Shown: positions 9,058 through 16,693 of the stretch, piece by piece
Layout: each line of letters opens with the position of its first letter
Numbering within the stretch: position 1 is the stretch's first letter
Assembly: GCA_001874335.1 (NCBI GenBank)
Contig: MPDE01000005.1
Location: forward strand, 62,001 to 126,000
Direction: 5' to 3'
Length of the DNA: 64,000 bases
From: Bacteroidetes bacterium MedPE-SWsnd-G2
Lineage (GTDB): Bacteria > Bacteroidota > Bacteroidia > Flavobacteriales > Flavobacteriaceae
Notes under the pieces: model-generated
The model's database searches: none
The model's input: only the letters and a program-made list of their open reading frames with translations
What the model was told of the DNA's origin: nothing
Program-made: the position numbers and the translations under genes

Positions 9058-11562
9058 TTAAAAATAAATACGAACTACAGCATTAGTCGTCAGACTTAAA
9101 GAAAATCTTGAAAATCTATCAACTACATCATTTTGGTTAACTCTATAATAGTTATTAATGGCATTTCCCCTATTTGATATGTTCCAGATAGAAGCTCCAA
9201 TTTCAGACCTTAGCGAGTTGCTTATTTTAAACTTATAAATGGCAGAAGCATCAATTCTTAAATAATCTTTTAATCGTTCATTATTCGCTTCATCAAAATT
9301 CACATCATCATCAACTATTTCATTACTTGTTAGAGGAATAGAAGTAGGCTTTCCTGTTCTGTAGTTTAATCCTGCTGAAATATTCCATGATTTATTACTA
9401 TATGTTGTTCCAAGAGTTACAGAATGTGTAATATCAAAATTACTTGGAAACTCAATATCTTCTATTGCTTCAAATCTGTATGTGTTATTTATGTATGAAT
9501 AACTTAACCAACTATTGAAACTACCGAACTTTTTTCTACACAAAAATTCAAAACCAAATGCATCATAACTACCTTTTTCCTTTGCAAATTCGTATTTAGT
9601 TGTGAAGCTTTGGCTTTGAGTTGTAATACCATCGACTGTTTTGTAATAGCCTTTAGCATCCAATAACCATCCACCATTTTTATACGTTATACCTAAAGAT
9701 GCTTGTTTACTATGTATAATGGGAATACTATCATTATCTGTTAATTGCCAACGTCTTTTCTCTATGCCTAAAAAATCATTTTGGAAATTGACAATTTGTG
9801 ATGTGCTTTGATGTTTAAATTCTCCTTGCGCTTCAATTTCAATATGTTCTCCAATAGATTTTCTAACACTTAATCTTGGTTCTATAATAAATTCTTCAAA
9901 CCTAGTTAAGTAATTTGCCCTAATACCACCTCTAATTGAAAAATCATTATTTGTGTTTTTGTACCAAGCTTGACCAAAAGCTCCATGTTCTCTTAATATT
10001 TCTTCATCACGTCTTACAAATCGAGGTAAATCAATATCGTTTAAGTTGATAACTTCAGTTTCTGTAAACTGATACCCTAGATTAAAACGCCATTGATTTT
10101 GTACAAGTAAGTTATTCAAATGGACACTTGTTTCAGAAACAATATTTTCTTGTAGTTGCAACTGATTACTCAATACATCTGCATTTTGAGCCTCAAGTTT
10201 ATACTCATTATCGTAAACGTTGATAGTTGTGGATAGTTTTTTATTCCATTGCCTTTTGTAATTAAGTCCAATTGCAAGACTATTTTGTGATATACTACTA
10301 CGCCTAGCTATTGATGTTTCATTAATATCAGCAGTTTCATCGAAACCTAAATCGTTGTTAATTAGAATAAAATTTAATCGAATAAAGTCTTTATCCGTAG
10401 CTTGATATAACCATCGCAAAGAAGCATCATAAAAATCAAATTCTTGATTAGAGTTAGTGACATTAGAAGCATTGGTTTCAGCTTCTGTGTCTTGAGTTAT
10501 TCTATCAAAATACACATCGTATGTTGGTGTTCTTAAAAAATCGTTTAAAGACTTTCTGGAAGCAATTTGTAATGATGATTTATTACCAACAGGAATATTA
10601 GAAAATAATTCTGCATTTAAAAAATTAACACCAAAAACACCATTGAATTTTGAATCAATTTGTTTGTCAGTTTGCATGTGAATAGTCCCAGAAACACCAT
10701 CAGTTAATGATACGTCTGAACCATTATTAATAACACTTGCTGTTTGTGTCATATTTGGATTAAAGCTAGATATAAGACCAAAAAAATGCCCTGTTTGATA
10801 CATTTTTATATCATCCCAAAGCATTAAATTCTGGTCGTGAGAACCACCTCTAATATTAATGTTTGAAACAGTTTCATCAACACTTAAAATACTTGGTAAT
10901 GCTTGTACGGTTTGTAATACATCAGATTCAATAAGACCAGGTAAAAGACTAAATCGTTTGTAGTCTATTGAGGTTGACCAATCCTGTCTTTTGTCTATAC
11001 CTTTAACAAGGTAAGTTTCAATAAGTACTGGTGATATAACTTCTTGGTGAACGAGCATTGTTAACGTCCCACAATCTTCTAACCTGAAATATTTTGCTAG
11101 ACGTTCTATAGTCTTAAATCCTATGTGTCTAATGGTTAGTAATTCATTTTGAGATTTCAACTCCATTTCAAAATAACCATTCTCATCCGTTACTGCATAA
11201 TTAAATTTACTACTAATAGTAGCACCTATTAGAGGTTCTTGCAACTCAGAACCCTTAATGTAGCCACAAAATTGAATAGTTTTTGAAATCGTGTAAACCA
11301 AATCGCTAACTCTTTCAAAAATCAGATTGGTTTGCTTTTCTAGGTTATTGATTTTTGCAGACAAGCTTAAATTTTGTGTTAGAGGTATTACGGTAATATT
11401 TTTTAAAAGACTACTCTCATAGTTAAAAGTGATAGCGTGTACTTCTGTGATGTCTTTTAGAACTTCAGAGATGGTAACTTTCTGTTCTGTGTTTTGTCCC
11501 ATCAATTTAAATGAGAGAGAAAAACACAGGAATAGAAATATGTAGAGTTTAGTTCTGCCCAT
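9058..11562 (-). CDS. FecA-type TonB-dependent receptor with STN signalling domain
   Basis: Outer-membrane active transporter that also signals to an anti-sigma factor. Signal peptide 1-22; secretin/TonB short N-terminal (STN) domain at about 30-95; carboxypeptidase-like regulatory fold at about 98-180 (GYIKGSELQEPLIGATISS); plug at about 205-310 (NINIRGGSHDQNLMLWDDIKM); 22-strand-type barrel to the C-terminal aromatic residue. At 834 residues it is complete. The STN domain is the part that contacts FecR-type proteins, and the gene overlaps the 3' end of fecR by 14 bp, so the two are translated as a pair. No SusD partner is present. Ligand unknown. Confidence 0.9.
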   Translation of the reverse strand: MGRTKLYIFLFLCFSLSFKLMGQNTEQKVTISEVLKDITEVHAITFNYESSLLKNITVIPLTQNLSLSAKINNLEKQTNLIFERVSDLVYTISKTIQFCGYIKGSELQEPLIGATISSKFNYAVTDENGYFEMELKSQNELLTIRHIGFKTIERLAKYFRLEDCGTLTMLVHQEVISPVLIETYLVKGIDKRQDWSTSIDYKRFSLLPGLIESDVLQTVQALPSILSVDETVSNINIRGGSHDQNLMLWDDIKMYQTGHFFGLISSFNPNMTQTASVINNGSDVSLTDGVSGTIHMQTDKQIDSKFNGVFGVNFLNAELFSNIPVGNKSSLQIASRKSLNDFLRTPTYDVYFDRITQDTEAETNASNVTNSNQEFDFYDASLRWLYQATDKDFIRLNFILINNDLGFDETADINETSIARRSSISQNSLAIGLNYKRQWNKKLSTTINVYDNEYKLEAQNADVLSNQLQLQENIVSETSVHLNNLLVQNQWRFNLGYQFTETEVINLNDIDLPRFVRRDEEILREHGAFGQAWYKNTNNDFSIRGGIRANYLTRFEEFIIEPRLSVRKSIGEHIEIEAQGEFKHQSTSQIVNFQNDFLGIEKRRWQLTDNDSIPIIHSKQASLGITYKNGGWLLDAKGYYKTVDGITTQSQSFTTKYEFAKEKGSYDAFGFEFLCRKKFGSFNSWLSYSYINNTYRFEAIEDIEFPSNFDITHSVTLGTTYSNKSWNISAGLNYRTGKPTSIPLTSNEIVDDDVNFDEANNERLKDYLRIDASAIYKFKISNSLRSEIGASIWNISNRGNAINNYYRVNQNDVVDRFSRFSLSLTTNAVVRIYF

Positions 11563-12451
11563 TCTTAATAATGACCTCGTTAGTGTTTTGAATTGTATAG
11601 GTCAAATTAAGTGGATTTGTTATAGATTTTAGGGCGTTTTCAAGGTTATTATGTTCAAAAGCACCTGTGAAGTTTACATTCAAACTAGATGGATATTGAA
11701 TCTTTATGCTGTATTGTTTTTCTAATTCTTCAACAACTGCTTTAAAAGAAGCATCTTCAAAAACACTCATGTTTTTAAGCCAATAAGGTTCAGCTATTAC
11801 AATATTTGACTTTAAGCCTTTTCCTGAAGATAAAATAAACTCTGTACCAGCAGGTAGTTTAACTTCATTATCATTATATGTGACTTGTACTAAACCTTCG
11901 TAACACGATACTTTAAAGATACTGTCTCTGGACATCACATTAAACTCTGTCCCTAGAACACTAACTTTACCAAACTCTGTATTAACATCAAATCGTTTTC
12001 CTTTTTCTACATCAAAAAAAGCTTCACCATTTAGGTCTAATGACCTATTAACATTCCAATTAGAACTGTTATATTCTAACTGGGATAACTCGTTTAGGTT
12101 TACGGTTGAGTTGTCAGGTAGTGTGATGGTTTCGTTTTGAACTAAACCAGTGTTAAATGAGCTTATTTGGTCTTTATTTGCCAATGTAAATAGTGCAAAG
12201 CCAACAACCAAGATTGCTACTAAACTAGAAGCAAATTTTATCCAATTTGTAGATGTATTTTTTTTAGGAATTAATTTCTTATCAAGTGTATCAAACGATT
12301 CAACTTTGGCATTTGTATTACCATTAAACCTCTGGACTTCCTCAATAATTTCTCTATATAAGTCAGCATCTTCCAACGCATTGAAATCTCTTGACTCTAT
12401 TTTAGATAGGTCATTATTTAACCACTTTTTTACTAATTGTTCTTTGTCCAT
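11549..12451 (-). CDS. FecR-family anti-sigma factor
   Basis: Inner-membrane regulator that should hold the adjacent ECF sigma factor and receive the signal from the TonB receptor. Residues 1-65 are cytoplasmic (sigma-binding); a membrane segment lies at about 68-90 (WIKFASSLVAILVVGFALF); the periplasmic FecR domain is at about 105-200 and a DUF4974-type C-terminal domain at about 230-300 (FTGAFEHNNLENALKSI). The 300-residue length is typical. It is preceded by the candidate ECF promoter at 12469-12496 and overlaps the receptor gene by 14 bp. Confidence 0.93.
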   Translation of the reverse strand: MDKEQLVKKWLNNDLSKIESRDFNALEDADLYREIIEEVQRFNGNTNAKVESFDTLDKKLIPKKNTSTNWIKFASSLVAILVVGFALFTLANKDQISSFNTGLVQNETITLPDNSTVNLNELSQLEYNSSNWNVNRSLDLNGEAFFDVEKGKRFDVNTEFGKVSVLGTEFNVMSRDSIFKVSCYEGLVQVTYNDNEVKLPAGTEFILSSGKGLKSNIVIAEPYWLKNMSVFEDASFKAVVEELEKQYSIKIQYPSSLNVNFTGAFEHNNLENALKSITNPLNLTYTIQNTNEVIIKNGQN

Positions 12452-12468
12452 AACTTGCTGTTATATAT

Positions 12469-12496
12469 TTAAAACAACTTAAATAATAATTGTCCC
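12469..12496 (-). promoter_or_regulatory. Candidate ECF sigma promoter upstream of fecR
   Basis: On the minus strand GGGACAATTATTATTT begins the element and TTGTTTTAA (plus-strand 12469-12477) ends it, with 19 nt from the first G to the TTG. It is nearly identical to 13560-13587 and closely resembles 13084-13110. It sits in the 49-bp gap between the sigma gene and fecR, so the sigma factor can raise fecR and receptor transcription independently of its own. Confidence 0.7.
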
Positions 12497-12500
12497 AAAA

Positions 12501-13025
12501 CTATTTTCGATTTAGTTCCTTAAGTTCATTTTTTAGTTTATTCAAAGCTCCGTATATTCTATGTTCAGCTACTTTTTTTGTAATGCCTAATGTGTCAGCA
12601 ATTTCCTTATGTGTCTTACCATCAACTTTGTTTAATAGGAATGCAACTCTTTCTTCCTCTTTCAATTGAGACAGAGCATGCTCAAACCGTTTTAGAAACT
12701 CTTTTTTACGTAAAAAAAATTCAGGAGACTCGTTAGTATAATCCCTTGGTTTTATTTGTTGATATTTTAATACTACTTTTTGATGTTTCATCTCATTGAG
12801 CATCATGTTATTTGCTGTTGTATATAAATAAGATTTAGCAGTCTCTGGTTTTATTTTAGCGCAGTTTTCCCAAAGTTTAATAAATGCTTCTTGTACCTTA
12901 TCTGAAGGATTTAAAAGATTTCCGTATTTATAAAACAATATATTGCTCAATGATTGCGCATACTTCTCATATAGCTTTGAGAAGCGAATTTTATCACATA
13001 TATCTTGATGTAATGATTTTGGCAA
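12501..13025 (-). CDS. ECF RNA polymerase sigma factor (FecI-like, Bacteroidota type)
   Basis: A 174-residue sigma-70 family factor with region 2 at about 10-85 (DKVQEAFIKLWENCAK) and a region 4 helix-turn-helix at about 112-165 (THKEIADTLGITKKVAEHRIYGALNKLK). It is expected to direct polymerase to the GGGA/TTGTTTTAA promoters around it. The start is taken as TTG at 13025: an in-frame TAA lies two codons upstream and the next ATG comes only near residue 73, within the sigma-2 region. A TTG start implies low basal translation. Followed by fecR and the receptor gene. Confidence 0.9.
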   Translation of the reverse strand: MPKSLHQDICDKIRFSKLYEKYAQSLSNILFYKYGNLLNPSDKVQEAFIKLWENCAKIKPETAKSYLYTTANNMMLNEMKHQKVVLKYQQIKPRDYTNESPEFFLRKKEFLKRFEHALSQLKEEERVAFLLNKVDGKTHKEIADTLGITKKVAEHRIYGALNKLKNELKELNRK

Positions 13026-13083
13026 GGATTAAGATTTTAATTTCAGTATAGAAAGATAAATAAAAAAAAATCTATTTTTTCTT

Positions 13084-13110
13084 GGGATATTTTTTTATGA
13101 GTTGTTTTAA
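13084..13110 (+). promoter_or_regulatory. Candidate ECF sigma promoter upstream of the LytTR-like gene
   Basis: GGGATATT starts at 13084 and TTGTTTTAAGAATA follows at 13102-13115, with an 18-nt distance, one less than the two sister elements. The TTGTTTTAAGAATAAA block is identical to that at 13579. The start codon at 13123 is only 13 bp further on, so the mRNA leader would be very short. Confidence 0.6.
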
Positions 13111-13122
13111 GAATAAACCCTC

Positions 13123-13542
13123 ATGATTATGTTTCTAAATAAGCAAAAAATCTCTCCCTATTCACTAACATTTTTGTCCGTTAAACATATAGATAATGAA
13201 ATTTACATTCCTGTTAACAGTATAGCCTGTATATATAAAAAGAAAGATATTTTTTATGTTGTTGGAGCTTTTAAATTTAAACTTTCATTGAAGATAAAAA
13301 GTTTAAGCGAATTACCTGTTAATTTTACTCAAGGAGATTACTTAAAACTGAACAAAAATACTATAGTTCGTAAAGAAAAAACAAAAATCACCTATGGCTT
13401 ATCCTATACTGAAGCTATTGTGTCTAACGGATTTCATACTTGTTATTTTAAAATTCCTAAAGAGTTAGAGATTAATTTTAAAACTTCTTTATATAAGGAA
13501 ATAAATCAGCGCAAAGCATACAGCGTAGAACAGAAAAATTAA
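13123..13542 (+). CDS. LytTR-like DNA-binding protein (tentative)
   Basis: A 139-residue protein with no signal peptide or receiver domain. Residues about 18-125 align by eye with the LytTR domain of the response regulator at 32705-33439: a first strand before PVNSIACIY, a K-x-L-x-EL helix (IKSLSELPVNF), then YLKLNKNTIV where LytTR proteins have F-R-I-H-x-S-Y-I-I-N. If right, it is a free-standing DNA-binding domain with no obvious sensory part. It lies alone between the sigma factor (divergent) and the lipoproteins (same strand), and its promoter matches the putative ECF promoter. A second regulatory layer in the island is inferred; the family call is uncertain. Confidence 0.5.
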   Translation: MIMFLNKQKISPYSLTFLSVKHIDNEIYIPVNSIACIYKKKDIFYVVGAFKFKLSLKIKSLSELPVNFTQGDYLKLNKNTIVRKEKTKITYGLSYTEAIVSNGFHTCYFKIPKELEINFKTSLYKEINQRKAYSVEQKN

Positions 13543-13559
13543 TTTATTAAAATATTTTT

Positions 13560-13587
13560 GGGACAATTATTATTTGAATTGTTTTAA
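13560..13587 (+). promoter_or_regulatory. Candidate ECF sigma promoter upstream of the Asp-rich lipoprotein
   Basis: GGGACAATTATTATTT begins at 13560 and TTGTTTTAA lies at 13579-13587, 19 nt from first G to TTG. It shares all but a few of about 30 positions with the fecR promoter on the opposite strand. The mRNA would have a leader of about 65 nt before the ATG at 13657. Confidence 0.7.
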
Positions 13588-13656: not shown

Positions 13657-15444
13657 ATGAAAACATTAAAACCAATCTTACTATTAGTTCTTGGAGTTGT
13701 ATTCACTATGACTTCTTGTAGAACTGAAGACGATTTATCAATTGACCCACCAGTTGAGGAAACAATCGAAGCCAATTCGACAATAGCAAATTTAATGAGT
13801 AGAACTGCATCTAATGATGGTTCTAATGATAACATTATTGATAATGCTAGTTGTTTGAGTGTTCAGCTACCTGTTACTGTTACAGTAAATGAAATTGAAC
13901 TTGAAATTAATGATAACGATGGTTATGAAGATATTGAAGATATTATTGACTTATTTGATGACGATGTAGATTCTGTTGTTATTACTTATCCAATTACAGT
14001 TATACTTGCAGATTTTTCAACTGTTGTAGTCAATTCTGATTCAGAATTAGCAACACTTACAGCTAACTGTGTCGGTGAAAATGAGGATGATGATGACATA
14101 GAATGTGTAGATTTTCAATACCCTATTACAGCTTCTGTTTTTGATGAGAATAATGATTTAATCAATTCAATCATCATTGAAAATGATAATGATATGTATG
14201 ATTTTATTGATGATTTAGATGAATTTTCGGCAGTAACAATTAACTTCCCAATTACAGTGATTTTTGCTGATGGTACAACACAAACCATAAATAGCATTCA
14301 GGAGTTAGAAAACACTATTGAAATGGCTGATGATACTTGTGATGAAGATGATGACAACGATTTTGATGATGATGATTGTAATAACTGTACAACTAATGAC
14401 ATAGATTCTGTTTTTGCAGATTGTATGGAATGGACAGTAGATAAACTAGAACGAAATGATAATGATTTAGAAGATAACTACGTGGGATATGTATTTGAAT
14501 TTAATAGTGATGGTACAATTTTAGTTACTCAAGGTTCAAATACGTTTAATGGCACTTGGCAAGCTTCTGGTACAGGTAATAATATTTCGGTAGTAGTAAA
14601 TGTTACAGGTTTATCAGATTTTAATGATACTTGGAACTTACATGAAATTGAACAAGAGACGGGAGAAGTTAAAGTAGACCTAAGATTAGGTGATGATAGA
14701 TTGCGTTTTGAGAGTGATTGTGTAAATGGAGGTGGTGGTATCGATGACACAGCATTAGTTAATGCACTAACCAATGGTGATTGGTATGTAACTTACTTCT
14801 TTGATGATACAGATGAAACCGCAGACTTTTCAGATTATGTTTTCAATTTTGCATCAGACAATACAGCAACAGCTACAGATATGAGTGGAGCTACTAATGG
14901 AAGTTGGTCAACGTCTTCAGGAGATGAAACAGAACTTGGATTGAATTTAAATTTTGGGACAAGTATTCCATTAGATGAATTAGCTGATGATTGGGATGTT
15001 CTTGAAGTAACAAATGATATTATAAGACTAAAAGATATTAGTGGTGGTGATGGTTCTGAAGATTTCTTAACTTTTGAAAGAACACCTTTTGATGGAGGTA
15101 ACGGAAATGATGATTTGGAAACTATTTTGGCAGATGGTTTGTGGATAGTGGCTTCATATACTGAAGATGCTAATGACCAAACTGCTAATTATAATGGTTA
15201 CGAATTAAACTTTGATGCAAATGGTACTGTTTCTGCTTCTAATAACACTAATACAAACAATGGTACTTGGATGGTTTTTAGTAGTGGTAATCAAATGGCT
15301 ATAGATTTTGGAACAGATATACCATTTGAAGAGTTTAACGATGATGATTGGGATGTAATTTCAGTTTCAAGCACCGAAGTGACTATTCAAGATGTGAGTG
15401 GTGGCGGTGGCGGAACAGACACATTAACCCTTCAAAAACTTTAA
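13657..15444 (+). CDS. Asp-rich multi-repeat lipoprotein
   Basis: A 595-residue acidic lipoprotein (lipobox MTSCRTEDD, Cys near residue 21), probably anchored in the outer membrane. Residues about 65-137 and 149-226 are two copies of a module with Y/F-PITV-I-x-ADF/G-T motifs. Residues about 248-355, 365-475 and 486-595 are three copies of a second module (W-x-V-x-x-x-x-D, GYxFxF, DGT, NGTW, DDWDV, ISGG, LTF). Asp/Asn-rich linkers suggest calcium binding. The second module also makes up the next gene, 28 bp downstream. Its promoter matches that of the fecR-receptor operon, so it may deliver or capture the receptor's ligand; no enzymatic motif is seen. Confidence 0.8.
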   Translation: MKTLKPILLLVLGVVFTMTSCRTEDDLSIDPPVEETIEANSTIANLMSRTASNDGSNDNIIDNASCLSVQLPVTVTVNEIELEINDNDGYEDIEDIIDLFDDDVDSVVITYPITVILADFSTVVVNSDSELATLTANCVGENEDDDDIECVDFQYPITASVFDENNDLINSIIIENDNDMYDFIDDLDEFSAVTINFPITVIFADGTTQTINSIQELENTIEMADDTCDEDDDNDFDDDDCNNCTTNDIDSVFADCMEWTVDKLERNDNDLEDNYVGYVFEFNSDGTILVTQGSNTFNGTWQASGTGNNISVVVNVTGLSDFNDTWNLHEIEQETGEVKVDLRLGDDRLRFESDCVNGGGGIDDTALVNALTNGDWYVTYFFDDTDETADFSDYVFNFASDNTATATDMSGATNGSWSTSSGDETELGLNLNFGTSIPLDELADDWDVLEVTNDIIRLKDISGGDGSEDFLTFERTPFDGGNGNDDLETILADGLWIVASYTEDANDQTANYNGYELNFDANGTVSASNNTNTNNGTWMVFSSGNQMAIDFGTDIPFEEFNDDDWDVISVSSTEVTIQDVSGGGGGTDTLTLQKL

Positions 15445-15472: not shown

Positions 15473-15958
15473 ATGAAAAAAGCATTTAATCTCGGGTTTT
15501 TATTAATGTTAAGTTTTTCCTTAATGTCATCAATGTGTTCAAGCGATGACGACGATGGAAGTCCAAACGATAATAGTCAACAAATTGCTCAAGTACAAAA
15601 TACAGCACAGTTAGGAACATGGCGTATAACCAATTTCAATGATTCTGGACAGAATGAAACTTCAGATTTTACTGGTTATGATTTCTCGTTCAATTCTGAT
15701 GGTTCACTTACAGCTACAAATGGTTCTGATACCTTAACTGGAACATGGTCTGTTACAGATGACAGTAATAGTAGTGATGATAGTAGTAGCGATGATGATA
15801 TTGATTTTAATATATTCTTCCCTGTTCCTGATACTAATAATTTTGAAGACCTTAATGATGACTGGGATATTGTAATGACTTCTGCTACGAGAATTGAATT
15901 AATTGATATTAGCGGAGGTAATGGTGGAACAGATATGTTAACCTTCGAGAAAAATTAA
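15473..15958 (+). CDS. Single-module paralog of the Asp-rich lipoprotein
   Basis: A 161-residue lipoprotein (signal MKKAFNLGFLLMLSFSLMSS followed by MCSSDDDDG). Its body is one copy of the module repeated three times at the C-terminus of the preceding protein: GTWRITNF, TGYDFSFNSDGS, LTGTWSV, DLNDDWDI, IDISGGNGGTDMLTFEKN. A Ser/Asp run lies in the middle. The 28-bp gap and shared module imply one transcript and origin by duplication. Function unknown. Confidence 0.8.
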   Translation: MKKAFNLGFLLMLSFSLMSSMCSSDDDDGSPNDNSQQIAQVQNTAQLGTWRITNFNDSGQNETSDFTGYDFSFNSDGSLTATNGSDTLTGTWSVTDDSNSSDDSSSDDDIDFNIFFPVPDTNNFEDLNDDWDIVMTSATRIELIDISGGNGGTDMLTFEKN

Positions 15959-16031: not shown

Positions 16032-16062
16032 CCAACCATGAATTTTCATGGTTGGTTTTATT
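16032..16062 (+). terminator. Terminator of the lipoprotein operon
   Basis: CCAACCATGA at 16032-16041 pairs with TCATGGTTGG at 16046-16055, followed by TTTTATTA. It closes the plus-strand lipoprotein transcript just before the minus-strand IrrE remnant. Confidence 0.75.
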
Positions 16063-16288
16063 ACTCTACTTCAAGTTTATTCATTACTGTTATAACGCTC
16101 CTTTTTCTATAATATTCGTTATACTCAAAACAAACACGACCTCTTGCAATACCTGCATGAATTTTATTTTTTCTTGAAAAACTCAAAATCACATCGTCGC
16201 TAAACTCATGATTGAAAGTAATAAAATCAATCCATAAGCTTTCTTCAATCAAATTATTACTCGCATAAGAATCAGCTTCAAATTCAAC
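16061..16288 (-). pseudogene. C-terminal remnant of an ImmA/IrrE-family metallopeptidase
   Basis: An open frame of 75 codons reading from 16288 to a stop at 16061. It begins with EFEADSYASNNLIEESLW, which matches the part of ImmA/IrrE (and HigA-IrrE antitoxin) proteins carrying the third zinc ligand and LIP-x-x-x-W segment, and continues with FSRKNKIHAGIARGRV, the conserved C-terminal part. The HTH domain and HExxH motif are absent, and a stop lies three codons upstream of 16288. It ends exactly where the SRPBCC remnant begins, so both lost their 5' parts in one event. Not expected to be functional. Confidence 0.65.
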
Positions 16289-16291
16289 TAA

Positions 16292-16693
16292 ATCTCAACA
16301 GCCCAAACCAATGAAAAAGCCATAGCAGGTATAACAAGCGGGTTAATAGGTTTGGACGAAAGTGTGACTTGGAGAGCAAAACACTTTGGCATTTATCAAA
16401 ACCTAACAACCAAGATCACCGAGTTTGATAAGCCAAATTACTTTGCGGATGAGATGGTTAAAGGTGCTTTTGCATCTTTTAGGCACGAACATCATTTTGC
16501 ACAATTAAACGGCGAGACCATTATGACGGACTATTTTGATTATAAATCGCCATTAGGATGTATTGGCAGGCTCTTCGATAAATTAGTGCTCAAAACATAT
16601 ATGACCGACTTACTTTGTGAGCGCAATCGCATCATAAAAGAATTTGCAGAATCAAAGCAGTGGGAGAAACTTTTAATTGAAAAAAATGAATAG
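16292..16693 (+). pseudogene. 5'-truncated SRPBCC-family protein
   Basis: Homology to SRPBCC ligand-binding proteins starts abruptly at 16292 (ISTAQTNEKAIAGITSG) directly after an in-frame TAA, and continues through VTWRAKHFGIYQNLT, the SFRHEHHF segment and a C-terminal YMTDLLCERNRIIK helix to the stop at 16693. About 35 N-terminal residues, including the first strand of the fold, are missing. The longest frame with a start codon begins at the TTG at 16352. The missing part coincides with the breakpoint of the IrrE remnant. Confidence 0.75.

Follow-up and report, generated by a model that had tools for sequence, protein, structure and literature searches.

A putative private regulon of a FecI-like sigma factor in a flavobacterial surface-signalling locus

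In the ferric citrate system of Escherichia coli (FecI/FecR/FecA), an ECF sigma factor is accompanied by a FecR-domain membrane regulator and a TonB-dependent receptor with an N-terminal signalling domain. The genes fecI and fecR are served by one sigma-70/Fur promoter, and FecI controls a single promoter before fecA. FecI is not autoregulated, its gene being transcribed from a housekeeping promoter, and its activity needs FecR, which acts in a pro-sigma mode (PMC9249621). In the polysaccharide-locus systems of Bacteroides, such as BT1877/BT1876, the sigma factor, FecR-type anti-sigma factor and receptor are encoded side by side, and loss of the anti-sigma factor BT1876 raises target transcription; for PUL24, one 5' end was mapped within the anti-sigma gene, with no promoter consensus given (PMC11501099). 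ECF-type promoters have also been described in a flavobacterium, in the F. psychrophilum SM6 system, where one precedes a sigma/anti-sigma pair, the -10 box is CGT and T9SS genes are involved (PMC9723704). In general, the prediction of FecI-type promoters in Bacteroidota has been called challenging, mapped transcription starts being needed (PMC3878776).

Composition of the cluster

The window (the whole stretch of DNA analysed, 64,000 nucleotides) comes from a flavobacterium whose sigma protein is nearest to Psychroserpens and Winogradskyella sequences. The cluster comprises the following features, among which the -7 box, the lipobox and the terminator are readings of the sequence.

9058..11562, minus strand: TonB-dependent receptor gene (834 aa), with a 14-nt overlap between its start and the fecR end
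11549..12451, minus strand: fecR, anti-sigma factor or sigma regulator (300 aa; PF04773 2.8e-17, PF16344 FecR_C 9.5e-12)
12469..12496, minus strand: putative promoter element 1 (fecR-receptor), GGGACAATTATTATTTAAGTTGTTTTAA; starts 4 nt past the sigma stop codon, 17 nt from its end to the fecR ATG
12501..13025, minus strand: gene of the FecI-like ECF sigma factor (174 aa; starts with TTG; His155 in the recognition helix)
13051..13058, minus strand: sigma-A-like -7 box TATCTTTC upstream of the sigma gene, where no ECF element lies
13084..13110, plus strand: putative promoter element 2 (LytTR-like gene), GGGATATTTTTTTATGAGTTGTTTTAA; 12 nt from its end to the ATG, spacer 1 nt under canonical
13123..13542, plus strand: gene for a small LytTR-like protein (139 aa, without a receiver domain)
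13560..13587, plus strand: putative promoter element 3 (lipoprotein operon), GGGACAATTATTATTTGAATTGTTTTAA; 69 nt from its end to the ATG
13657..15444, plus strand: LIP1, Asp-rich lipoprotein (595 aa, lipobox ...TMTSC)
15473..15958, plus strand: LIP2, Asp-rich lipoprotein in the LIP1 operon (161 aa, weak GH43_C lipocalin-like match)
16032..16059, plus strand: terminator-like hairpin CCAACCATGAAttttCATGGTTGG and T-run, closing the lipoprotein operon

The sigma protein consists of regions 2 and 4 only (Sigma70_r2 5.9e-10, Sigma70_r4_2 5.1e-12), as expected of an ECF factor, and its best NCBIfam model is the Bacteroidota subfamily TIGR02985, at 93.4 bits under a cut-off of 126.4. Its gene adjoins that of the FecR-domain regulator, as in other surface-signalling systems. 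In the receptor, an N-terminal STN/FecR_C-like signalling domain is followed by CarboxypepD_reg and then the plug; the plug match of the window protein is weak and its own N-terminus has no significant STN match, the signalling domain being assigned through relatives (STN in 4 and a FecR_C-like domain in 11 of 21 N-termini of the receptor family). The small LytTR-like protein has no Pfam match; its low-confidence model (pLDDT 60) matches best the LytTR domain 3d6w (prob 1.00, E 0.017). In the predicted fold of LIP1, lipocalin/META-like domains come after beta repeats (pLDDT 77, pTM 0.34; matches 4nw4 and 4kh8). Beyond the lipoprotein operon, at 16283-16693, lies a 113 aa reading frame with an abrupt beginning and no clear start region, possibly a gene remnant.

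Taken as a whole, the cluster is best read as a Bacteroidota surface-signalling module of the FecI/FecR/FecA type. It has the components of the E. coli system, and its sigma gene is likewise predicted to be free of autoregulation and to have a housekeeping promoter. In contrast to E. coli, fecR is separated from the sigma gene by a sigma element and forms one predicted sigma-dependent unit with the receptor gene, and the lipoproteins appear as added outputs. The side-by-side arrangement of sigma factor, FecR and receptor is that of the Bacteroides loci, but no glycan enzymes were seen in the cluster; with no SusD family member found among its proteins, it is not classed as a SusC/SusD polysaccharide utilisation locus. 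Compared with SM6, which shares the use of ECF-type promoters in a flavobacterium, the element here carries TTGTTTTAA and its targets would form a private local regulon.

The putative promoter element and its distribution

A preliminary description of this DNA proposed that the local sigma factor switches on its anti-sigma factor, its receptor, the LytTR-like protein and the two lipoproteins through one shared element. The three elements lie where it had placed them, at 12496-12469 on the minus strand and at 13084-13110 and 13560-13587 on the plus strand, and the fecR and lipoprotein copies are indeed near-identical, with 26 of 28 positions the same. The pattern GGGA-N14/15-TTGTTTTAA, which it suggested as a genome search, has exactly three matches in the 3,035,083 bases of the host genome, all in the cluster, and dinucleotide shuffles of the window gave a mean of 0.01 matches. 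The gap is thus 14 or 15 nt, as in that search string; the "18 or 19" also given there holds only if GGGA is counted. Near-matches in the host genome (2-3 mismatches) were at chance level, both for the 28-nt form (44+23 vs 28+22 for the control) and for the 27-nt form (28+30 vs 32+26). Among the 2- and 3-mismatch neighbours inspected, that of a second fecR alone looked a convincing promoter, the open-frame filter applied to them being permissive and flagging even this true site. A weak distant target may exist elsewhere in the host genome.

About 115 loci were compared overall. A scan of named genomes yielded 80 loci with the sigma gene, which carry the sigma-FecR-receptor trio and, in nearly all cases, a divergent LIP1. 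A site matrix was refined on the upstream regions of fecR and LIP1, with the 99th percentile of shuffles as threshold, and returned the core TTGGGACA-12-GTTGTTTTAA at both genes. Sites were found upstream of fecR in all 82 regions (the window and the second module counted) and of LIP1 in 73 of 80, against none of 80 for the receptor and one of 65 for LIP2; as the matrix was fitted on the fecR and LIP1 regions, the informative part is this contrast with the other genes. In the LIP1 failures that were examined, extra small genes lie between LIP1 and the element. The distance from the element end to the fecR ATG is 17 nt in most loci. The relatives requested for comparison in the preliminary description therefore agree with it: the element is kept before fecR and the lipoprotein gene across the Flavobacteriaceae.

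The core spacing is 12 in 152 of 156 fecR and LIP1 sites, and the four others are of the TAGG type, whose additional G allows them to align one base further on. Compared with these sites, the LytTR copy, with a spacing of 11, is the only GGGA-type exception, and given its off-length spacer it may be weak as a promoter.

The sigma gene itself was said to lack the element, which proved correct: its best score is -6.8 bits, vs 24.9-28.5 for the three window sites, and although 5 of 81 sigma upstream regions in the whole comparison exceed their low threshold, none is above 6.9 bits. In many relatives, a TAnnTTTG or TAnCTTTC box of the sigma-A -7 type stands about 20-30 nt upstream of the sigma start. 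Of the 80 orthologues compared (L004-L083), 57 begin with TTG, as does the window gene at 13023-13025, which makes TTG a conserved weak start codon. The missing element, the sigma-A-type box and the TTG start together suggest that the sigma factor is made at a low, constitutive level, with regulator and receptor under sigma control.

The element is closely confined to loci with this sigma gene. With the exact pattern GGGACA-N11-13-GTTGTTNTA, it was found in all 24 genomes carrying a close sigma orthologue, where 45 of 46 matches are in the module (a second complete module in W. tangerina included) and the remaining one is within the reading frame of an integrase. A further 59 relatives were sampled that have no orthologue exceeding about 60% identity; these gave two stray matches, neither in such a module. 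A family-wide search with a loose exact pattern was uninformative and was set aside, since 145 of 201 genomes matched, mostly through lone dissimilar sites.

Covariation of the -35 box with sigma residue 155

The -35 box is of three types, GGGA, CAGGA and TAGG, and within a locus the fecR and LIP1 copies have the same type in 73 of 74 cases. This type goes with the amino acid at position 155, in the recognition helix of the sigma factor, in 82 of 82 comparisons (His with GGGA, 46/46; Tyr with CAGGA, 21/21; Lys with TAGG, 15/15). On the sigma tree, two changes suffice for either box type or residue 155, and the match thus counts as two coincident events, not 82; the sigma clades also differ at many other region-4 residues. 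Outside the fitted set, the rule was obeyed by 32 of 34 further FecI-type loci, which are relatives and not independent events. All six Tyr proteins there go with CAGG or AAGG, and 26 of the 28 Lys proteins with TAGG, two of these sites (L221, L239) having been picked by eye over a poorer automatic candidate; of the other two Lys proteins, one lacks a site and in the other both helix and box are divergent.

In well-studied ECF factors, the position aligned with residue 155 is occupied by the VRSRI-motif serine, a position that we take to be base-contacting in E. coli sigma-E. The host genome itself holds a second FecI-FecR-receptor module (L173:4819-12647, i.e. G000:C2:114000-128500), with a divergent gene of 922 aa; its sigma factor has Lys155, and its own GTAGGG-type pair of sites precedes fecR2 and the divergent gene. 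The comparison across loci suggests which sigma amino acid reads which DNA letters. We put forward, tentatively and as a possibility slightly short of even, that residue 155 acts as a specificity switch in the FecI-type sigma factors of Bacteroidota, Lys reading GTAGG, Tyr CAGGA or AAGGA and His GGGAC. If so, and given that the element keeps a fixed place between sigma gene and fecR, sequence alone would suffice to predict the promoters and private regulons of this sigma family.

Of wider interest here are the promoter rule and the correlation with residue 155. FecI-type sigma factors are numerous in Bacteroidota, and the promoter here is readable from sequence because fecR lies directly downstream of the element. 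Two paralogous modules in one genome provide a built-in specificity control, and hence sigma-promoter matching in this phylum would be directly testable with point mutants.

Reading of the regulon and its alternatives

That the three elements are promoters read by the neighbouring FecI-like ECF sigma factor, and so mark a private regulon, is in our view highly probable. The local regulon of the preliminary description is upheld in its main lines by conservation, confinement and the covariation of -35 box and recognition helix, from which we infer the dependence on sigma; it is qualified at the LytTR-like gene, which is accessory and has the off-length spacer.

The genome encodes many sigma-like candidates, and the tie between sigma factor and element rests on sequence, so another sigma factor might read the elements, their closeness to the sigma gene being inherited synteny. 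This is unlikely, as the element accompanies the orthologue in 24 of 24 genomes and gives only stray matches without it, its -35 type fits residue 155 of the adjacent sigma factor, and the paralogous module has a different box beside its own. Somewhat less probable still is that the elements are operators bound by the small LytTR-like protein, or by some other regulator that binds DNA, and that these genes form its regulon. The LytTR-like gene does lie within the cluster with an element of its own, and two copies have partial ACAATT...AATTGT symmetry. However, that gene occurs in 3 of about 82 loci and the element in all; two boxes make up the element, a single polar site with a near-fixed 12-nt core spacing and not a pair of direct repeats; ACAA is found in the left box of only 29 of 82 fecR sites; and box type follows the sigma factor. 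We dropped the inverted-repeat or operator reading on finding the ACAA/TTGT symmetry not conserved. That the elements are AT-rich sequence arisen by chance or duplication, with no function as promoters, has a barely appreciable probability: the window is rich in A and T, and even spacer bases are shared by the fecR and LIP1 copies, as recent copying would give, but the core boxes are kept in dozens of species while spacers differ, and shuffles come near zero.

Copying may have acted on the promoters themselves. The 12-nt spacers of the fecR and LIP1 copies are normally unrelated within a locus, yet in 7 of 70 loci they agree at 10 or more positions (the window, Winogradskyella, Dokdonia, Allomuricauda and others; besides the window, L022, L033, L038, L056, L019 and L015). 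This number was not reached in any of 5000 within-box-type permutations (mean 0.74, maximum 5). The simplest reading is recurrent copying (gene conversion) between the two inverted promoters, which would explain the near-identity of the fecR and lipoprotein copies seen at the outset.

On the reading of the elements as promoters of the local sigma factor, the sigma gene would owe its transcription to the housekeeping sigma factor, its translation would begin at the weak TTG codon, and at rest its product would be held by FecR. The N-terminal signalling domain of the receptor would report ligand or transport to FecR, a step proposed from homology (FecR, FecR_C, STN-like domain), and the sigma factor would be released or activated. 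GGGAC would be read by its region 4, whose recognition helix contains His155, and GTTGTTTTAA by region 2. The active factor would then turn on fecR and the receptor gene, giving feedback and more sensor, and with them the gene of the small LytTR-like protein and the operon for the Asp-rich surface lipoproteins. The conserved element precedes the overlapping fecR-receptor pair, and because of this overlap and the lack of an element of its own, the receptor gene is probably covered by the fecR transcript. Because loss of BT1876 raises target transcription in Bacteroides, we tentatively favour negative feedback through fecR over the pro-sigma mode found in E. coli. A family of Asp-rich surface lipoproteins would in this way be tied to surface signalling.

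The LytTR-like gene is an accessory member of the regulon; no relatives of it were found in 150 sampled genomes of the family. In Hyunsoonleella flava and another flavobacterium (L013:2377-5566, L075:2189-5397), a LytTR-like gene with the element heads an operon for a predicted secreted or outer-membrane protein of 300 aa and a family-2 glycosyltransferase of 618 aa (BcsA-like), which suggests an exopolysaccharide output there. No cellulose-like output is proposed for the host, the H. flava glycosyltransferase having only a 28%-identical match in its genome.

Other genes that acquired the element in relatives lie within the same island. In these islands it precedes fecR, LIP1, two families of helical proteins of 45-90 aa, a lipoprotein of 237 aa that is found in Eudoraea-like genomes and, in three loci, the LytTR-like gene. 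The two helical families have no known domain names, and each gene often has its own sigma element (L004:5148, L020:5957, L028:5462 and 5718, L031:5546 and 5746, minus strand); in Winogradskyella flava (L207), the helical-protein genes are arranged in tandem.
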